A DNA stretch of 64,000 nucleotides, taken from assembly GCF_030296755.1 (NCBI RefSeq), contig NZ_AP027741.1, positions 434,001 through 498,000 of the forward strand. Direction: 5' to 3'. The translations under genes were made by a program, and so were the position numbers. This document shows, one piece after another, positions 46,175 to 56,599 of the stretch. The notes beneath the pieces were generated by a model. It was given only the letters and a program-made list of their open reading frames with translations. It had not been told where the DNA came from and made no database searches. How positions within the stretch are numbered: position 1 is the first letter of the stretch; the number at the start of each line of letters is the position of its first letter. Source of the stretch: Methylophaga marina (GTDB lineage: Bacteria > Pseudomonadota > Gammaproteobacteria > Nitrosococcales > Methylophagaceae).

Positions 46175-47059
46175 TTAGCTTTCAACTGTGACTTTCAGTA
46201 AATTTTCCAGTTCAGGGTGGTTCTGCAGCGGCTCAAGTGCAGGATCGTCTTTACATTGTTCACGATAAGTATCGCTACACTGAATCGCTTGCTTGAGATA
46301 ACGGATGGCTTCATCAAACTGATTCAATGCGGTGTTAGCACACGCCAGTTGATAGAAGGCATGACCGTTTTCCGGATCAGACTCCAGAGCTTGATGACAA
46401 AGATTGGCAGCCCATTGAGGCTCGTCCAGCTCGAGCACCGCATCTGCTTTATAGGTTAAAGCTTCTACATCGTACGGCCTTATCGCCATGATTTGATCAT
46501 AAACGGCGATTTTGTTGCTTGGACTGGTTTCCTGCCCCGCACGTAACCACAAGGATTGAACTTCTTGGGTATGTTCAATTTTCTCGCGGTTCTCTTCAAT
46601 TTGCTGGGTTTCTTTGCTGAGTTGCTGCTCAATAGCATGAAGTCGTTTTTCATACTCATTGATTAAGCTGTTAATTTCCTGATCGGCCAGCGTATGCACC
46701 CGCTCTTTAATTTCACGAATCGATGACCACCCCACTAATACCAGTACGGATGAAGCTGCAGCAATAAGATAGAAAAAATAAGTGACAGTATCAGTGGCAT
46801 ATCCGACAGCTCTGTCTGCAGCTGACAGTTCTTTATCCACTGTCATCTGGATCATTTCAGCACGCTGTGCTGCCATATCGGTACGAAGCTGCTTCAACTC
46901 ATCGAGCACATAACGCTCAATAAATGGGGTATATAAAGGCTCATTAAGGGCATCAACAGACTCACGCATCTGTTGTTCTGTAGGTGCCTGCTCAGCGGCA
47001 AACAGCTGAGCAGGTATAAGTAAGACAAGAAATAAGCTTATCGTTATGAAGCGAGGCAT
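46175..47059 (-). CDS. Membrane-anchored coiled-coil TPR protein
   Basis: This 294-residue protein has a signal peptide (1-21, ending LFA), a periplasmic segment (22-85), a membrane helix (about 92-111), a coiled coil (about 120-165) and three TPR-like units (about 185-290: NKIAVYDQIMAIRPYDVEAL, WAANLCHQALESDPENGHAF, and a third). I do not recognise a specific family. It overlaps the ask stop by 16 bases and precedes the SSS transporter by 20 bases, so it is coupled to both. It could scaffold or sense for that transporter. Confidence 0.78.
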   Translation of the reverse strand: MPRFITISLFLVLLIPAQLFAAEQAPTEQQMRESVDALNEPLYTPFIERYVLDELKQLRTDMAAQRAEMIQMTVDKELSAADRAVGYATDTVTYFFYLIAAASSVLVLVGWSSIREIKERVHTLADQEINSLINEYEKRLHAIEQQLSKETQQIEENREKIEHTQEVQSLWLRAGQETSPSNKIAVYDQIMAIRPYDVEALTYKADAVLELDEPQWAANLCHQALESDPENGHAFYQLACANTALNQFDEAIRYLKQAIQCSDTYREQCKDDPALEPLQNHPELENLLKVTVES

Positions 47060-48486
47060 ATGGCTCTACCATGGTCATGAATCTCTACCAGCACACTGTG
47101 CAGGCTCTTAATCGCATCGTCATAATCATCTTCGTTGATAATGAACTGCATATCAACCTGACGCATGGATTGATGCATCGCTAAGACACTGATGTTTTCT
47201 TTGGCCAGTGCCCCAACTGTTTTTGCCAGAATACCAGGAATTTTCATATCACTGCCGATCGCAGAAACAATGGCCACTTGTTGCTGATTGATTTCAGCAT
47301 CCTCGAACCGCTCTTGCAGTGCATTTCGAATACGTTTAATCGTCTTCAAGTTTGCTGATAAATAATGCGTGATCGTGTTGGCATTAATATCTTTAGAGAT
47401 GATATGTGCATTAAAGCGATGGATAGTTGCCAATATCTCACGATCATACACATCAATATTGCCCGCCATATCCTGGTCGAATAACTCAAACGCATACACG
47501 CCTTTACAGCCAGCAATGATTTCGACACATGGGGTGGCGCTGACATAATCGCCGGTAATTAATGTACCCGCATGCTCGGGTTCAAACGTGTTACGTACAC
47601 GAAGAGCAATCTCGTTTCTACGCAGGCCTTTGGCTGCTTTAGGATGAATGGCTTCCATACCTAAATTAGCTAATTGGTCTGCGACATCATAATTCGTTCT
47701 GCCGATAGGTACGGCATTGTCTTCACCCACCAGTCTCGGGTCTGCACTGCTGAGATGAAATTCTTTATGAATGATCGCTTCGTTTGCTTCAGTCAGCACC
47801 GCAATACGACTGAAGCTCATTTCACTATAACCACGGTCAAACGTCGACATCAGACCATCATCACTGTGGGCGTAACCAGTGACTATAGGTAGTTGTTTTT
47901 TCAAGTCAATATCTTGAAAGGCGACTTTAATACGTTCGTCCAGCGGTAAATGTTTGTCTGTTTGCCAACCAGTTAAATCAACAAAAATGGCATCAATGCC
48001 ATCACGTTTTAGTAGCTGGGTCATATTCCATGCACTGTGTGCTTCACCAATACTGGCCAGCATTTCACGGACTGTTTCAAGATGCATATCCAGCTCAAAG
48101 TGCCCATGCTGACAGAGTCTTTGCAAATCGGCTAAGCAACGTTCAGCATCATCTAAACGTTCACCAATGAACTGATTAGCACGCTCAAGATTGTCTGGTT
48201 TTTTGTAAAACGTTTCATTGATGGCAAAGATTTTTTGCTTCAGATCTTCGAGAGCTTGTTTCCAGCTGTCATCATGTAGTCCGTTTGCAAACAAGCCGAA
48301 CACACCTGGTTGTCCGGTCTTTTTATGTTCCAGTAGCAGGTCGGTAATGCCGCCGTAAGCTGAAACAACAAATATACGATTGTAGAGCGAGTCGTTATGA
48401 ACCGGTTTCAGAATAATGTTATCGCGCACAGCAACGTAGTCGCTCATAGAAGTGCCGCCGATTTTTTCTACCGTATGAAAACTCAT
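47044..48486 (-). CDS. ask: Ectoine-operon aspartate kinase (Ask_Ect)
   Basis: This dedicated aspartate kinase supplies aspartyl phosphate for ectoine synthesis. The 480-residue protein starts MSFHTVEKIGGTSMSDYVAV, with the kinase KxGGTS motif; FDRGYSEMSFSRIA is the aspartate-binding region, and two ACT-type segments occupy the C-terminal 130 residues. Enzymes of this subfamily escape lysine/threonine feedback in other organisms. The gene is 128 bases after ectC, across a strong hairpin, and overlaps the TPR gene. Confidence 0.92.
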   Translation of the reverse strand: MSFHTVEKIGGTSMSDYVAVRDNIILKPVHNDSLYNRIFVVSAYGGITDLLLEHKKTGQPGVFGLFANGLHDDSWKQALEDLKQKIFAINETFYKKPDNLERANQFIGERLDDAERCLADLQRLCQHGHFELDMHLETVREMLASIGEAHSAWNMTQLLKRDGIDAIFVDLTGWQTDKHLPLDERIKVAFQDIDLKKQLPIVTGYAHSDDGLMSTFDRGYSEMSFSRIAVLTEANEAIIHKEFHLSSADPRLVGEDNAVPIGRTNYDVADQLANLGMEAIHPKAAKGLRRNEIALRVRNTFEPEHAGTLITGDYVSATPCVEIIAGCKGVYAFELFDQDMAGNIDVYDREILATIHRFNAHIISKDINANTITHYLSANLKTIKRIRNALQERFEDAEINQQQVAIVSAIGSDMKIPGILAKTVGALAKENISVLAMHQSMRQVDMQFIINEDDYDDAIKSLHSVLVEIHDHGRAICLAS

Positions 48487-48614: not shown

Positions 48615-49019
48615 TTAGTCACTGATGGTGTCTGCTTCTAATTCGTAAGCACCATCTTTGTTATGAACTTCTGTGCCATGAAGCGGTGGATTAAACACGC
48701 ATGCCAACTTCATTTCTTTAAAAGCACGAAGCATGTGTTTGTCGTGTTTGTCGAGGTTATATAACGTACCTGGCGTGATAGCGTATTTTTTACCATCATC
48801 CAGTGTTTCAACCTCACCTTCACCACTAATGCAATACACAGACTCCAGGTGATTTTGATAATGCATTCTGAAATCAGCACCTTCGTAGATAGTGGTGATA
48901 TGGAAAGAAAATCCCATATTGTCATCTTTTAACAGCAAACGAGTACTGTCCCAGTTGCCATTAGGATCAACGATTTTACGATCCGTTTTTTCTGCTTCTT
49001 GAAGTTGTCTAACAAGCAT
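48615..49019 (-). CDS. ectC: L-ectoine synthase
   Basis: EctC closes N-gamma-acetyldiaminobutyrate into ectoine. The 134-residue cupin starts [16 protein letters not shown] and contains [27 protein letters not shown] and [13 protein letters not shown], with the metal-binding Glu, Tyr and His of the family. It lies between ectB and ask. No ectD (hydroxylase) is present, so ectoine rather than hydroxyectoine is expected from this locus. Confidence 0.96.
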
Positions 49020-49090: not shown

Positions 49091-50428
49091 TTATGATTGA
49101 CGAGTCATTTTCTCGACTTCTTCACTCACTGAATAATCACCTTCGAAATAATCTTTTTCTTCTGGAATATTGTCAGCCTTGGCACATACTTCTTTGATTG
49201 ATTGCTCAAGGATATCAATACCCTTCTCTAAGTTTTCTTGTGTGATCGTGAGCGGACATAAAAATTTGACCACATGATCATCAGTACCACTTGTTTCGAT
49301 GATCAGACCTTTCTGGAAGGCGTTGTGGGTGATTTTTCCAGCAATTTCACCGCTCACACAATTAATACCACGGAACATGCCACGACCATGTGAGTTGAAG
49401 TTACCTTCACCATACAACTCAACGATCTTATCAACACGCTTAGCGATGTAATCACCTTTCGCTTGTACTTCTTTAGCGAAAGTATCGTCTTTCCAATAGT
49501 TATCCAGTGCCGCTTTTGCTGTAATGAAGGCAGGGTTATTGCCACGGAATGTACCGTTGTGCTCACCTGGTTTCCATTGATCTAACTCAGGCTTCATCAA
49601 CACAATAGCGAAAGGTAAACCATAACCACTGAGTGATTTAGAGACAGTCACGATATCAGGGTAGATACCCGCTTCCTCAAAGCTGAAGAATGTGCCTGTT
49701 CTACCACAACCGGCTTGGATGTCATCAATAATTAGAAGTACGTCATGCTTCTTACATACTTCAGAAAGACTTTTTAACCAAGTCATTGAACACGCATTGA
49801 TACCACCCTCACCCTGCACAGTTTCCACAATGACAGCAGCAGGTTTATCTACACCACTGCTTGAATCAGAGAGAACTTTGTCTAAGTAGTTAGTTGTATC
49901 AACATCATCACCCATATAACCATCATATGGCATACGAGTGGCACCACTGAGGCTCACGCCTGCACCACCACGGTGATGTCCATTACCTGTGATAGCTAAA
50001 GAACCCAATGTTTGACCATGCCAACCATTAGTAAAAGAAATGACATTTTCCCGCCCTGTATATTTACGAGCTGTTTTTAACGCAGCTTCTACAGCATTGG
50101 TACCCGTTGGACCTGTGAACATAACAATATAGTCAAGGTCACGTGGCTTAAGAATATTGTTGTTGAAACTCTCTAGAAACTCACCTTTGGCACGAGTGTG
50201 AAGATCAAGACCTTGAGTGATGCCATCGTTGTTGATGTACTCAAGCAATTTTTCTTTGAATAGATCGTTATTGTGACCGTAGTTCAGTGAACCTGCACCG
50301 GCTAAGAAGTCTAGATAGGCATTGCCTTCTTCATCATAAATAAACTCGTCTTTTGCACGGTTGAACATGCGAGGGAAAGAGCGGGCATAAGAACGTACTT
50401 CTGATTCAATTTCATCAAAGATTTTCAT
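49091..50428 (-). CDS. ectB: Diaminobutyrate-2-oxoglutarate transaminase (ectoine pathway)
   Basis: EctB converts aspartate semialdehyde to 2,4-diaminobutyrate with glutamate as amino donor. The 445-residue class III PLP enzyme starts [19 protein letters not shown], diagnostic for EctB, and shows [34 protein letters not shown] and the PLP-Lys segment [33 protein letters not shown] precedes the ATG. The gap from ectA is 57 bases. Confidence 0.96.
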
Positions 50429-50485: not shown

Positions 50486-50995
50486 CTATAGCTCGAATGG
50501 ACCGACTCTGACCAACATTTCTGTCTCATGTTGACCTGCAAAATGTTGTTGGCGATCAAACATCACTGATCGGTTTAGCTCTGCATCAAGCTTATTGGCC
50601 AAACTTTCAAATAATGCCCACGATGCACGATTATCCGGTGTGATAGTGGTTTCGATAAATTTCACATTCTTACATTGCTCACGGATCAGTATGTGACGAA
50701 GCATTCGGCTTGCAAGCCCTTGTCCTCTTGCTTTCTCGCCCACAGCGACTTGCCATATAAACAAAGTGTCAGGTTTCTTAGGTAAAACATAACCAGAAAT
50801 AAAACCGACCAGTGTTTCATTCATTTCAGCAGCTACAGATGTTTGGGAAAAATGACTGCTCTGCAGCAGATTGCAATACATAGAATTGGTGTCCAGAGGA
50901 GGACAGGCAGCAATTAATTCGAAGACAGAAGAACCGTCTTCTGCTGTAGGTTCTCGGAGGGTAATGAAAACATTCTCATCGTTATTATTTGTCAT
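50486..50995 (-). CDS. ectA: L-2,4-diaminobutyric acid acetyltransferase
   Basis: EctA acetylates diaminobutyrate at the gamma amino group. The 169-residue GNAT protein shows TLREPTAEDGSSVFELIA, ACPPLDTNSMYCNLL and the acetyl-CoA loop EKARGQGLASRML. It is the first gene of ectABC-ask. An 11-base direct repeat (CTCTATTATTT at 51006-51016 and 51021-51031) lies just upstream of the start, and the 194-base divergent gap to the cheW-like gene should hold the EctR-controlled promoter. Confidence 0.95.
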   Translation of the reverse strand: MTNNNDENVFITLREPTAEDGSSVFELIAACPPLDTNSMYCNLLQSSHFSQTSVAAEMNETLVGFISGYVLPKKPDTLFIWQVAVGEKARGQGLASRMLRHILIREQCKNVKFIETTITPDNRASWALFESLANKLDAELNRSVMFDRQQHFAGQHETEMLVRVGPFEL

Positions 50996-51189
50996 TTATA
51001 AATAGCTCTATTATTTATATCTCTATTATTTTTAAGTCACAATAAACCTGAAATTTATCTAATAAAACTGCATATTTCTTATTAAACAGCAATTTAAATA
51101 AAGTAAGTCAGGCTGTTAATGATTTGATATATATAGTACACTAAATAAACATATTGTCCAGCCCGAGATTATCAACGTATATTCAATAG
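50996..51189. promoter_or_regulatory. Divergent ectA / cheW-ectR regulatory region
   Basis: This AT-rich 194-base region lies between ectA and the cheW-ectR pair. It holds an 11-base direct repeat CTCTATTATTT (51006-51016, 51021-51031), which would be in the ectA leader, and an imperfect palindrome TTATTAAA-CAGCAA-TTTAAATAA (51079-51101) that is a candidate EctR (MarR-type) operator. I could not fix a -35/-10 pair in either direction. Confidence 0.5.
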
Positions 51190-51627
51190 ATGACATTACA
51201 GTTACAAGGCAACAAACAATGGCTCTGCTTCGCCATAGAAGATGAAACTTACGCTCATGCGGTAGATAAGGTGAGGGAAGTTCATGACTATATCACCCCC
51301 GTCCCTGTACCGGGCTCGCCGTCATATGTAGACGGGGTACTCAATATAAGAGGAGAGATTGTCACTATTGTATGCAGCAGAAAACTGCTTGGTATTGCTG
51401 ATTCATATGATGCGCGCCACATCATTATTCTGGAGTCAGATAATGGCTTAGTCGGAATAAGCGTCGATGAGGTGATAAGGATTACCTTGCTGGATTTGCA
51501 AAATATGGTTCATGTTGAACAAAAAAATACATTGAGCCCTATATATGCAACCGTAAAACATAAACAACAGCTAATTATATTGGCCGACTTTGAGCGTTGT
51601 TTTAACCAATTGGAAGATTATGAGTAA
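51190..51627 (+). CDS. CheW-like chemotaxis adaptor domain protein
   Basis: CheW couples chemoreceptors to the kinase CheA. The 145-residue single-domain protein has WLCFAIEDETYAHAVDKVRE, PGSPSYVDGVLNIRGEIVTI and VGISVDEVIRI, which fit CheW well. No cheA, receptor or other chemotaxis gene is in the window. It overlaps ectR by 8 bases (ectR ATG at 51620), so the two are co-translated. A run of seven A (51531-51537) is in frame here and intact. The role at an ectoine locus is unknown. Confidence 0.85.
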   Translation: MTLQLQGNKQWLCFAIEDETYAHAVDKVREVHDYITPVPVPGSPSYVDGVLNIRGEIVTIVCSRKLLGIADSYDARHIIILESDNGLVGISVDEVIRITLLDLQNMVHVEQKNTLSPIYATVKHKQQLIILADFERCFNQLEDYE

Positions 51628-52219
51628 AACTATCGGTTTAAATTTAGATGCAGTTTATAATCTTGATCTGACTGATAAGCAGAAGGATCACCTGTTGAAC
51701 CAAATTGAAGAAGTTTTAATCGCTTTACGGCGAGTTATTCGTGCAACTGATTTGCACTCTAAATATCTGGCAAAAACCACCAGCTTAACTGCACCACAAA
51801 TTCTGCTTCTGCAAAGCCTCAGAGATAAAGGTCAGATAACCATTGGCGAACTGGCCAGTGAGATGAGTCTTAGTCAGGCAACGGTCACGACAATTGTTGA
51901 TCGTCTGGAGAAGCGTGAACTGGTTTATCGAATGCGTTCAGAATCAGATAAGCGCAAAGTACATGTTCATCTGACTGATAAAGCATTGGAAATCCTGAAG
52001 AACGCACCGATTCCTCTCCAAGAGCAATTTACACGTCAGTTTGGCGACCTTCAGGAGTGGGAACAAACCATGATCATTTCTGCTCTGAAACGGGTAGCCC
52101 AGATGATGGATGCTCAGCACATCGATGCCTCCCCTGTTCTAGATATTGGTCTGTTAGATCGGCATGATGCTCTACTCGATAATCATGCCGCTTTTCTAGA
52201 CGAAAAAAATAAGACCTAG
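51620..52219 (+). CDS. ectR: MarR-family regulator EctR
   Basis: EctR represses the ect operon in halotolerant methylotrophs. I choose the ATG at 51620 (MSKTIGLNLDAVYNLDLTD, preceded by GGAAG); 199 residues. The winged helix-turn-helix (ITIGELASEMSLSQATVTTI, then VDRLEKRELVYR with the wing SDKRKVHVHL) is clear. The length and N-terminal extension match EctR better than short MarR proteins. Position next to ectA supports the name. It follows the cheW-like gene and is convergent with the GGDEF/EAL gene (4-base overlap). Confidence 0.87.
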   Translation: MSKTIGLNLDAVYNLDLTDKQKDHLLNQIEEVLIALRRVIRATDLHSKYLAKTTSLTAPQILLLQSLRDKGQITIGELASEMSLSQATVTTIVDRLEKRELVYRMRSESDKRKVHVHLTDKALEILKNAPIPLQEQFTRQFGDLQEWEQTMIISALKRVAQMMDAQHIDASPVLDIGLLDRHDALLDNHAAFLDEKNKT

Positions 52220-54312
52220 TGGTCCAATAATAAACGTAACTGCTGTGCAGGCATCGGGTGACTGAAAAAGAATCCCTGAAACTCTGCACAGCCTAACTTC
52301 CTTAAGACCTCCGCTTGCTCACTGGTTTCAACACCTTCAGCGATCGTACACAGTTGCAAATTATCCGCTAACTGTACAATTGTTTGTGCTATGGCACAGT
52401 CTTTTGTATTTGAGACAATTTCCTCTACAAAAGAACGATCGATTTTTAAAGTATCAATAGGAAAGTTCTTCAAATAACTCAGAGAAGAATAGCCTGTACC
52501 AAAATCATCAATTGCCAGCCGCACGCCCAACTTTTTTAACGAAAACAAAAGTGGAATAGTCTCAGCAGTATCTTTCAACATGGCTGTTTCCGTAATTTCT
52601 AATTCAAGCGTTTCTGGTGGTAGATCAGTGACATCCAAAGTATTTTTTATCGTATCTAACAGATAAGATTGCGTAAACTGAGACGCCGATAAGTTCACAG
52701 CAATACGGTAGGCACAGCCTGATGTTTTCTGCCACTCCCTCACTTGGAGGCAGGCTTGCATCAAGACCCAGTTCCCAATTGATAAAATGAGTCCCGTGCT
52801 CTCGGCCACTTCAATAAATACATCCGGTGTTAATAAACCCTTTGTAGGGTGACGCCAACGAAGTAATGCTTCAACCCCCACAATAGTGATGCTCTGAGCA
52901 TCATATTGCGGCTGATAAAACACCTCAAACTGCTGTTCAGCCAACGCTATTCTGAGATCATTCTCCATCTCTAAACGTAATTTAAGATAGTTGTTCATAG
53001 TTTCAGAAAAGAACTGATAATTATTTCTTCCCTTTTCTTTAGCATGATACATAGCCACATCGGCATGTTGTAATAAGGTCTGAACATTGTGACCATCATC
53101 AGGAAACAAGGTAATGCCCATACTAATTGAGATATGTAAAAACTTATCACTAATCAGGAAAGGCTCAGAAAACGCTTGAATTAAACGCTGAGCAATTTCA
53201 GCAACCTGCTCGACCCGGCCTACATCATCCAATAAGACAGTAAATTCATCACCGGCCAAGCGAGCAACACGATTATCAGCATCATAATTTGCTTTAGCGA
53301 CGACATCTGAGTCTCTGACACACTCTCGAATTCTGACGGCAGACTGACAGAGCACCTCATCCCCAATGTGATGACCATAGGTGTCATTGATATATTTGAA
53401 ACGATCTAAATCAAGAAACATCAGAGCAAATTTATTCTGATGGCGTTTTGCACTGGCAATGGCCGTTTCTAACTGCTCAATGAAAAGACGTCGATTTGGT
53501 AAATCTGTCAGCGTGTCGTAGTAAGCATAATAAGTAATCTCCTGCTCTGACTGTTTTCTTGAGGTAATGTCGTGCAAGGTACCTACCATTCGCCATTGAC
53601 CATATTCGAAACTAATATCGGTCCGCTCATTCACAAATAACACGCTACCATCGTTACGAATAATTCGGTATTCAATATCATATGACTGCTTTTCGTAAAC
53701 GGCTTGTTTGAGCGCCATCATCAAACGTGGCCTGTCATCTGGATGCACTTTTTTTAGCGCGGTTCGAACTGTCAGATTGGTTTCTTTTGAAAAACCCAGC
53801 ATGTCGAACATATCTGATGAGCATTCGAGAAACTCGGACTCAAAATCCCACTCCCAATACACCAGATTGGCGATTGACTGGGCCTTAGCCAATTTATTTT
53901 TATTCAGGCTCAGCTCTTGAAGCGTTTTGTTCGCCTTAAGAATATAACGAACCCGATGTTTAAAGAGCGGCCACTTCAATGGTTTGGTGATAAAGTCGGT
54001 GGCGCCAGATTCAAAAGCCTGTTCAATATCTTCAACATCATCCAGTGCTGTCACCATCACAATGGCACACTCAGCACCTTTCGGCAGAGCACGCAGTTGT
54101 GCACAGCACTCAAAACCATTCATGCCGGGCATCGATACATCAAGTAATGTGATATCTGGTTTATGCGTCGTAAATTGAATGATCGCTTCTTCACCCGATG
54201 CAGCTTCGACGATCTGTAACTCACTCGAGGTCAATGACTGAGTCATGAGCATACGTGTGACGGGATCATCATCCACGATCAAGACTACTTGCTTTTTGAT
54301 GGTATTTGCCAT
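52216..54312 (-). CDS. Receiver-PAS-GGDEF-EAL cyclic-di-GMP protein
   Basis: This protein of about 698 residues starts at the ATG at 54312 (TGATG overlap with the hybrid kinase stop, GGGGGATT before it). Domains: receiver (about 8-125, phosphoacceptor in ITLLDVSMPG), PAS/PAC (about 150-260), GGDEF (about 275-430, motif AGDEF in RLAGDEFTVLL) and EAL (about 445-695, with VEALLRWRHP and AIDDFGTGYSSLSYL). AGDEF variants can still be active. It may make and/or break cyclic di-GMP under control of the hybrid kinase encoded just upstream. Confidence 0.92.
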   Translation of the reverse strand: MANTIKKQVVLIVDDDPVTRMLMTQSLTSSELQIVEAASGEEAIIQFTTHKPDITLLDVSMPGMNGFECCAQLRALPKGAECAIVMVTALDDVEDIEQAFESGATDFITKPLKWPLFKHRVRYILKANKTLQELSLNKNKLAKAQSIANLVYWEWDFESEFLECSSDMFDMLGFSKETNLTVRTALKKVHPDDRPRLMMALKQAVYEKQSYDIEYRIIRNDGSVLFVNERTDISFEYGQWRMVGTLHDITSRKQSEQEITYYAYYDTLTDLPNRRLFIEQLETAIASAKRHQNKFALMFLDLDRFKYINDTYGHHIGDEVLCQSAVRIRECVRDSDVVAKANYDADNRVARLAGDEFTVLLDDVGRVEQVAEIAQRLIQAFSEPFLISDKFLHISISMGITLFPDDGHNVQTLLQHADVAMYHAKEKGRNNYQFFSETMNNYLKLRLEMENDLRIALAEQQFEVFYQPQYDAQSITIVGVEALLRWRHPTKGLLTPDVFIEVAESTGLILSIGNWVLMQACLQVREWQKTSGCAYRIAVNLSASQFTQSYLLDTIKNTLDVTDLPPETLELEITETAMLKDTAETIPLLFSLKKLGVRLAIDDFGTGYSSLSYLKNFPIDTLKIDRSFVEEIVSNTKDCAIAQTIVQLADNLQLCTIAEGVETSEQAEVLRKLGCAEFQGFFFSHPMPAQQLRLLLDH

Positions 54313-56599
54313 CAAATCCCCCGCCACTGTTCATCTAAGAAAGAAGTCAATTCAACATAATGCGTATCTAGTTTATCTATATATCCCCCAATCTGGTCAA
54401 GATTATTTTGTCTTGCCAACATTTCTATTTGTTTTGCTAACTCGGCAACAGCCGAAGCGCCAATATTGAGTGAACTGGATTTCAAGGCATGTGCTGATTT
54501 AAATAATTGCTCTGCGTTTTGATTTTTATAGGCCTGTTTGATTGCATGGATGAGGCTTGGAGTATGCTCCATATAGACCTGAAAGATTTGCTCAACCATC
54601 TGTTGGCCACTTTCCCCTGCCATAGCGCGAATATCATCCACAACACGCATATTAAGTATAGGGGTTGAGCCCTTGGCATGATCAAAAGTAGTGGATTCTG
54701 GCAACTTTTCTTTGGTATCTCCTAAGAATCTAGTCAATAAATCCACCAGCTTATTGAAATTGACTGGTTTAATCAGAATATCGTTTGCACCAGCAGCATA
54801 GAAGTCAGATTTAACTTGTTCATCATCATCCGCAGTTAACGCAATAATGGGGACTGTCAGCTTCAACCCCTCTCTGATTTGTTGAGTCACTTCGATACCG
54901 CTCATCATCGGCATGTGATAATCCATTAAAATCATGTCGTATTCAGACACACGACATGCATCTAATGCTTCTTTTCCATCACTCACTAAATCCACATTGC
55001 AATCGAGTTTTTCTAGCATATTCAGAGCAACGGATTGATTGACTTCATTATCTTCTACGACAAGTATTGTTTTGAGTGCCTTTTCGGCAGATGTTTTTAG
55101 CGAAGATGGTTTTTCTTCTGGTAACACCGTTGACCGAAAAATGACTTCAATAGGTAGGGTGAACCAAAAACGATTACCTTTTTTAGTCGCCCCCAGGCCG
55201 TAATCACCCAACATCAAGCTGATCAATTGGCTTGAGATCGCTAAGCCCAGTCCTAAGCCTACTGTCATGGCTTGTTCATTGTTCGAAGCTTGTTGAAAAG
55301 GTTCAAAAATACGTTGTTGTTCGACCGTATCTATAATTGGTCCAGGGTCGCTGACTGAAAATGTCAGAAAAGGTTTTGTCTCGTTAGTGCTCTCAACAAG
55401 GCTTAACTCAATATTCCCAGGCGAGGAGAACCGGATGGCATTATCGATTAAGTTATTGAGGATTTGTCTTAGCTTATGAGGATCCAATATGGCTTCTCTG
55501 ACATCACACTGGAAGCTTAATGTCAGTGTATGTTCATTTTGACTAGCCTTGGCTTGATTACTCTCCAGTACTGAATGAAGCAGTCGATATAAATCCGTCT
55601 GTTGTAGCTCGACTGGCAGTTGGTTGTCATTTAGTTTTGAATATATTTGTAATCGTTCAATAACATCTAATAACTCATGAACTGAATCATTCAGCTGACT
55701 GGCCTTTTCATGTACTTGTGATTCAGTGATGTGAACTTTCAGAAATTCGACATCATTAATCATTTTATGCACTAAAGCCTTTAACCCACGACCGCTGAGG
55801 TTAATAAGTGCTAATTTCGTGTTTTTTTCGTTCTCATATTGTGCTATCAAACGATTCGTTATTTCTAACGTTTCATCAGTTTGTTGCTTTAGCTTTAGCT
55901 CCAACTGTTTGCTGTGCTCAACCCAGTTCTGATTATCAGATTGTAAATCGACAATTGTGTGCTCTATATCTTGTAAACTTTGCTCACAGCTTAATAGCTG
56001 ATCCTGCTTTGTTTCCAATACAGCGTCGACAAACCGTCTTACTGGAAGAATATATCGACGCATAAAAAACCAAACTGTAGCGAGGATGGTTAGAAAAAAA
56101 TCACGAGTCCAGCATATCCGCCAAGCCAGATTGGATGAAAAGGCTTTTGCAATAGACGTTTATCAACCTCTAAATAAATACTCTCCACATTTTCATGCGC
56201 TCCACCAATTGGCTGAAGCGTATGGAGAACCTCTGAATCTGAATAATGATTTGTCTTAGTGAACGTTTGCCGCCATTGATTGGCATACTTATGCGTGACC
56301 TCTTGATTCGGTTTTTTATAATAAAAAAGCGTCTCCGCATTTTTACCAAAGACCACGGCCTGCTTAATATAAGGCACCGCATCTAACCAGGACAGTGCTT
56401 CCGTCTGTTCAGTAATATCATCAATACTGATATTTTTAGACTGTATTGATATCTGTTTTATGAGCGGCTCAAGCTGGTTCTGAGTGACTTTATCCACTAA
56501 TAGGTTGAATACGGCCACAAAAGTTATAGTGGAAACGGTGAGAAATACCACACTTCCCACCCATACAGATCGTGAAATACTCGTTTTCGATAGCGTCAT
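54312..56599 (-). pseudogene. Hybrid sensor kinase with receiver and HPt domains, frame interrupted
   Basis: A first piece (56090-56599) encodes a membrane helix, a periplasmic sensor and the start of a second helix, ending WLGGYAGLVIFF. The rest (54312-56063) continues in another frame: coiled coil, kinase domain (N box LRQILNNLIDNAIRFS; G box VGLGLGLAIS), receiver (ILVVEDNEVN, MILMDYHMPMMSG) and HPt (SAHALKSSSLNIGA). One extra T in the T7 run (A7 at 56094-56100) joins them as VIFFLTILATVWFFMRRYIL, completing the helix; the heptamer T TTT TTC would also allow a -1 slip. The usual His of the SHE-R-P H box appears as LSGRG, so the kinase may lack its own phosphoacceptor. Confidence 0.8.

Follow-up and report, generated by a model that had tools for sequence, protein, structure and literature searches.

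Introduction

Among the closest described counterparts of the locus considered here is the EctR/ectABC-ask locus of halophilic methylotrophs. According to a review on ectoine, the ectR transcript rises on osmotic up-shock in both M. alcaliphilum and Methylophaga thalassica (PMC5924519). The review describes control of ectR by EctR itself in M. alcaliphilum and none in M. thalassica, and gives the cue to which EctR responds as unknown (PMC5924519). The word CheW is absent from the main text of four ectoine papers, this review among them, and no link between CheW and EctR, CheW and ectoine or CheW and Methylophaga was found among the literature matches listed, a mention in the original M. alcaliphilum and M. 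thalassica EctR papers being possible.

Another counterpart is the CheW adaptor itself. In the account of PMC3828127 the salt-bridge pair E38-R62 aligns the receptor and kinase sites of CheW, residues 55-68 of E. coli CheW form the proposed CheA-binding site, and replacement of E38 with Ala is reported to disrupt interaction with the receptor (PMC3828127). To our knowledge, the coupling of osmotic adaptation to movement is poorly understood.

Organisation of the locus

The stretch of DNA analysed (the window) comprises 64,000 nucleotides of the Methylophaga marina genome, from genome position 434001 to 498000. On its plus strand a cheW-like gene, the product of which is called ect-CheW here, occupies positions 51190..51627 and encodes 145 aa that match the Pfam CheW profile (E=9.2e-24) over profile positions 1-136 of 138. 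It is followed on the same strand by ectR (51620..52219), which encodes a MarR-family regulator of 199 aa (Pfam MarR E=8.7e-21). The stop of cheW and the start of ectR overlap by eight bases, ATGAGTAA (51620..51627, plus strand), and this overlap is identical in all ten cheW-bearing genomes of the genus. On the minus strand lie ectA (50486..50995; NCBIfam EctA TIGR02406, E=1.2e-63), two open reading frames that we take to be ectB (49091..50428) and ectC (48615..49019) from their place in the operon and from similarity, and ask, encoding aspartate kinase (47044..48486; NCBIfam NF006614, E=6.8e-228). cheW therefore sits between a divergent ectABC-ask operon and ectR, with 194 bp separating the start of ectA (50995, minus strand) from cheW. 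A first-pass annotation of this DNA had described a CheW-domain gene before ectR with an eight-base overlap, and its coordinates, gene order and overlap sequence were all right. The overlap suggests a single cheW-ectR transcript with coupled translation, although an internal ectR promoter is possible. The same annotation held that EctR is made only with CheW; this is a claim about expression that goes beyond the sequence, and ectR occurs without cheW elsewhere in the genus.

The window was scanned with the CheW and MCP-signal profiles and no match to either was seen besides cheW, which upholds, for these two kinds of domain, the earlier statement that no chemotaxis gene is near. Genome-wide there are 11 CheW-domain matches and 19 MCP-signal domain matches, 18 of the latter above the cut-off. 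Judged by neighbouring matches and by their lengths, the remaining CheW-domain genes of the genome would include a CheW of flagellar type, members of a second system and a Pil-Chp-like set. In the genome contig (G000:C1) two equal-score MCP matches and two identical operator-like matches fall within about 1-53800 and 3053160-3106976, the paired matches being spaced by 3,053,160-3,053,162 bases at opposite ends of the contig. An untrimmed overlap of about 54 kb in a circular contig would give this pattern, and the MCP count would then be one too high.

Downstream of ectR, a response regulator-PAS-GGDEF-EAL gene (52216-54327, minus strand) lies tail to tail with ectR, an arrangement seen in many genomes of the genus with cheW present or absent. 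At the M. thiooxydans locus (L144) a match to residues 612-675 of this protein remains between ectR and a gene that we take to encode an aldo/keto reductase. Further along the minus strand of the window, part of a hybrid kinase (54312-56063; ATPase, receiver and Hpt) comes after a separate short open reading frame (56090-56599) with a membrane-anchor-like N-terminus. Since the relatives at L137, L138 and L145 are likewise in two pieces, this region may represent two genes rather than a frameshift.

Control region

An EctR-type operator, the 18-base palindrome TATTTAGTGTACTATATA (as read on the minus strand), is found at 51130..51147, 42 bp before cheW. We take this sequence to be the EctR site of M. 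alcaliphilum. It is overlapped by a promoter-like TGGACA-N16-TACTAT directed toward ectA (51133..51160, minus strand) that came from a consensus scan, weak when taken alone (5 sites against 3.3 expected by shuffling). The operator is present with 0-2 mismatches in all 21 ectR loci of the genus and with 0 mismatches in both Zooshikella genomes described below, and the window's genome holds only one site with under two mismatches. The locus thus combines an EctR-type MarR gene with a predicted EctR-type operator at the ectA promoter, and from this arrangement cheW, too, would be expected to come under the control of EctR.

The association of operator and regulator was examined at 47 ectA loci, one of which (L231) was set aside as it has no upstream sequence. 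The operator was scored as present where it had at most five mismatches and was equalled in no more than 4 of 100 shuffles, a limit set post hoc. On this basis it is present in 10 of the 22 ectA loci with ectR, including both Zooshikella, and in 1 of the 24 without a neighbouring ectR. That single case is G802, where the operator (four mismatches) falls inside the first listed codons of cheW; a GTG 43 bases downstream suggests itself as the true start of that gene. The corresponding site in Motiliproteus, 47 bp before cheW, is weak, with six mismatches and an equal score in 14 of 100 shuffles.

A candidate extension of the EctR regulon to a chemoreceptor was rejected. An operator-like site (L073:1501-1518), 82 bp ahead of an MCP gene, is the second-best such site in the genome, with two mismatches to a degenerate pattern; five further sites have three mismatches. 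The orthologue of this MCP gene in a second genome of the species has six mismatches at its best upstream site; the corresponding figures are 5, 5 and 7 for three congeners and 5 to 8 for six congeners at a greater distance (orthologues about 50% identical). A reversed control pattern gave about as many matches genome-wide at up to three mismatches (8 vs 7). The site, not conserved among orthologues, was judged to be a chance match.

Distribution of cheW at ectoine loci

In a set of 23 genomes of the genus (G000-G022) a strong EctR match was found in 21, the other two being 55% and 68% complete, and a divergent ectA is visible at 20 of the 21 ectR loci. An orthologous cheW (50-100% identical) lies directly 5' of ectR in 10 of the 21. 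Nine of these ten also show the divergent ectA; in the tenth, G003, the contig starts 231 bp before cheW and is too short to show it. The second genome of the window's species also encodes ect-CheW (as a 145-aa frame), and the named cheW-bearing species are M. sulfidovorans, M. aminisulfidivorans and M. thiooxydans. In another 10 of the 21, ectR is divergent from ectA across a gap of 239-292 bp that holds no cheW. One cheW-less genome, G020, has ectR split into two overlapping frames (L062, G020:C28:19773-20314) with the ect operator kept, and EctR may be broken there.

In G004 the gap between ectA and ectR is 330 bp. Over 75 bases it matches 7 of the 10 cheW-bearing genomes at 73-79% identity (best E 9e-12), the match spanning the operator and the first 17-18 bases of cheW, with a stop at the third codon; against the other three cheW-bearing genomes the match ends after 29-31 bases. 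In the EctR tree the G004 protein groups with EctR of the window's close relatives (95/75), and the remaining nine EctRs from cheW-less loci in that tree make up one clade (99/98). G004 thus appears to have lost cheW while keeping ectR; some doubt attaches to this, as the remnant is short and the support middling. The cheW-bearing species do not form one clade in this tree, in which the deeper forks of the genus are weakly supported.

Outside the genus, scanning of genome contigs revealed relatives of ect-CheW in Zooshikella ganghwensis, Z. harenae and Motiliproteus sediminis; the same scan gave two further weak matches (L149, L150). In the NCBI taxonomy Zooshikella and Motiliproteus belong to the Oceanospirillales and Methylophaga to the Thiotrichales. 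Both Zooshikella have the order ask-ectC-ectB-ectA, then a divergent cheW and an EctR-like MarR gene, with cheW and ectR 93-98 bp apart when measured from the listed TTG starts. In Motiliproteus sediminis and a relative, G802, cheW is again divergent from ectA, and no ectR follows it at the locus. The Motiliproteus sediminis locus also has a small minus-strand open reading frame between ectC and ask (L148:2042-2380) that by eye resembles a DksA/TraR zinc-finger protein.

Searches of larger sets of genomes indicate that this arrangement is rare. Around Zooshikella, a search of 390 genomes of the order (E up to 1e-38) returned the two Zooshikella as the sole matches. Around Motiliproteus, a search of 291 genomes (E up to 1e-36) returned Motiliproteus, the two Zooshikella, G802 and three weaker matches (E 3e-37 to 5e-37) with scores like that of the canonical CheW of G046. 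In a sample of 369 genomes of the class, EctA (E up to 1e-20) gave 45 matches in 43 genomes. Apart from the regions of G000 and G013, 43 gammaproteobacterial EctA-match regions were examined; an EctR-like MarR gene (E under 1e-8) was present in 20 of them and a CheW gene in none of the 43, several being cut by contig ends and L231 lacking sequence upstream of ectA. On this sample, the possibility that cheW is a widespread feature of ectoine loci is rejected.

The adjacency of cheW and ectR, searched for across relatives, is therefore not restricted to this strain: the same order is found in 10 of 21 genomes of the genus and in the two Zooshikella, and the link of cheW to the ect locus extends to three named genera in two orders. 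An obligatory pairing of CheW with EctR is rejected, as ectR stands without cheW in ten genomes of the genus (broken in G020) and after the apparent loss in G004, and as Motiliproteus sediminis and G802 have cheW beside ectA with no adjoining ectR. Nor is there support for a straightforward transfer of cheW and ectR as one complete cassette: in the EctR tree Zooshikella falls with a different ect locus (L217, G396; 98/90), apart from Methylophaga. The distribution may reflect shared ancestry with losses or a transfer of parts.

The ect-CheW protein and its relationships

Five AlphaFold monomer models of ect-CheW were obtained with pLDDT values of 82.9 (best), 81.5, 55.7, 43.0 and 40.4, three of the five being poor. 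The best model superimposes on E. coli CheW (6s1k_C) with a TM-score of 0.85, and the protein is predicted to adopt the CheW fold as a single full-length CheW domain. Against the NCBIfam CheW equivalog NF007903 it scores 45.8 bits (E=5.3e-12), well below the cut-off of 260. Residues E38, G57, R62 and G63 (E. coli numbering) are invariant in 14 of 14 ect-CheWs.

The 14 ect-linked CheWs (ten from Methylophaga, two from Zooshikella and those of Motiliproteus and G802) lie on one side of a branch supported at 97/90, with 36 other rows on the opposite side. In a first tree 13 ect rows were separated from the flagellar rows with support of 100/98, and flagellar CheW was the group nearest to the ect-CheW clade. 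This clade is separate from the rows of flagellar CheW, second-system CheW, CheV, PilI and ParP, and ect-CheW, falling outside the gammaproteobacterial flagellar CheWs, does not group as an orthologue of them. Six rows were left out of the second tree, L268 and L278 as second copies of the same ect genes and L279, L285, L005 and L006 for their long branches. One of these, L279 (G407:C7:15839-16237), is a CheW-domain gene of Zooshikella whose contig differs from that of the ect locus; the first tree placed it on the ect side, on a very long branch (2.77).

Wherever dS was computable, pairwise dN/dS is about 0.04-0.24 for cheW, many distant pairs being saturated, and 0.00-0.04 for ectR. From these values cheW is under purifying selection and evolves more freely and faster than ectR.

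Possible functions of ect-CheW

The comparisons above place ect-CheW in a lineage next to flagellar CheW, encoded divergently from ectA over a short control region with a predicted operator; its gene is intact and under purifying selection, with the E38-R62 pair kept. The chances are about even, in our view, that it is a dedicated CheW paralogue, co-regulated with the ect genes, which retunes the chemosensory arrays under osmotic stress. Through the shared control region the level of CheW would track osmotic stress along with ectABC-ask, and in Methylophaga the overlapping frame would tie it to ectR too. As salt rises, an extra adaptor with an altered CheA-binding surface would join the chemosensory arrays; its entry would shift which receptors couple to CheA, or how strongly they do so, and swimming behaviour would be adjusted while ectoine is being made. 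Several observations count against a dedicated adaptor, namely its rarity (none in 43 other ectA regions), the apparent loss in G004, its absence from ten other members of the genus, the changed CheA segment and the NF007903 score below cut-off. To these may be added the lack of ectR autoregulation in M. thalassica, the weak operator of Motiliproteus and the faster evolution of cheW relative to ectR. A bolder form of the proposal can be put forward only tentatively. It holds that a specialised CheW has been retained under ectoine control in two bacterial orders and that arrays are rebuilt with a salt-specific adaptor as ectoine synthesis starts, a hard-wired link between osmolyte synthesis and taxis to which the overlapping genes of Methylophaga might add feedback on EctR.

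The residues in and around the proposed CheA-binding segment allow another reading. Position 56 is E or D in 14 of 14 ect-CheWs and L in 19 of 19 flagellar CheWs; position 64 is E or D in 12 of the 14 and N in all 19; and D70, just past segment 55-68, is kept in 1 of the 14 (Motiliproteus) against 18 of the 19. This pattern is compatible with a coupling protein whose kinase contact has changed, and CheA binding may have been lost rather than redirected. ect-CheW might then be a decoy or modulator that binds receptors and couples CheA poorly, so that its salt-driven supply would dampen chemotaxis during osmotic stress. The invariant E38, the difference from flagellar CheW across the whole group in the proposed CheA-binding segment and the loss of D70 in 13 of 14 are consistent with such a role, which we nevertheless consider unlikely. 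The changed residues may not matter for CheA binding, and E. coli CheW, which has K at 56 and V at 64, also differs there, so working CheWs can vary at both sites; moreover D70 is kept in Motiliproteus and G57, R62 and G63 within the segment are invariant.

The patchy distribution, the one apparent loss and the 43 of 43 other ectA regions without cheW could also be accounted for by a passenger gene: an additional adaptor of the usual kind would have arrived in the ect control region on a single occasion and spread with the locus, with no functional tie to osmotic stress. This is quite unlikely, being hard to square with the occurrence of ect-CheW in three named genera of two orders in the same orientation, with the operator, with purifying selection and with a separate clade.

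Two directions can be envisaged for the flow of information, from salt to a chemotaxis adaptor or from chemosensing to osmotic control, and the conserved scaffold residues favour the first. The second, in which CheW passes a signal to osmotic regulation, perhaps through binding to EctR or a nearby kinase, and the ectoine operon listens to the chemosensory array, would profit from matched synthesis of CheW and EctR by way of the overlapping frames, and the review leaves room for it in giving the cue of EctR as unknown (PMC5924519), but it is very unlikely given that ectR occurs without CheW in eleven genomes of the genus (broken in one), that two lineages have CheW next to ectA with no ectR adjoining it, that Zooshikella EctR, unlike the CheWs, is not grouped with that of Methylophaga, and that no CheW-MarR interaction was found among the literature matches listed. 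Across lineages the steadier companion of cheW is the ect promoter rather than ectR, and a role for CheW mainly as a partner of EctR is therefore disfavoured. The first-pass annotation had proposed a link between salt control and a chemotaxis adaptor; the link itself stands, in three named genera and two orders, while the notion of CheW as an obligate partner of EctR is not supported.

A dedicated adaptor under ect control would have a bearing on how osmotic adaptation and movement are joined. The conserved CheW subfamily at the ect control region offers a concrete gene and promoter in M. sulfidovorans, M. aminisulfidivorans, M. thiooxydans, Zooshikella and Motiliproteus, and suggests that a metabolic stress regulon can set the composition of adaptors, beyond the choice of receptors.

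Comparison with known systems

ect-CheW is a known kind of protein in a conserved regulatory setting of which no earlier description was found in the literature searched. The locus resembles the EctR/ectABC-ask loci of M. alcaliphilum, Methylophaga thalassica and M. alcalica in its divergent ectR and ectABC-ask and its MarR-type EctR, and shares with those of halophilic methylotrophs an operator that overlaps a promoter-like ectA site. It differs from them in that the window has cheW between the control region and ectR, overlapping ectR. As with CheV and other CheW-domain adaptors encoded outside che clusters, the gene for ect-CheW lies away from other CheW and MCP genes; unlike CheV, ect-CheW has no receiver domain (145 aa, a single Pfam domain) and is not among the CheV rows of the tree. 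With the flagellar CheW of gammaproteobacteria it has in common a full-length domain, the predicted fold, the invariant E38, G57, R62 and G63 and the nearest position in the tree. It is set apart from flagellar CheW as a separate clade encoded at the ect locus, away from other CheW and MCP genes, and by a proposed CheA-binding segment that differs from the flagellar one, with D70 lost in 13 of 14.
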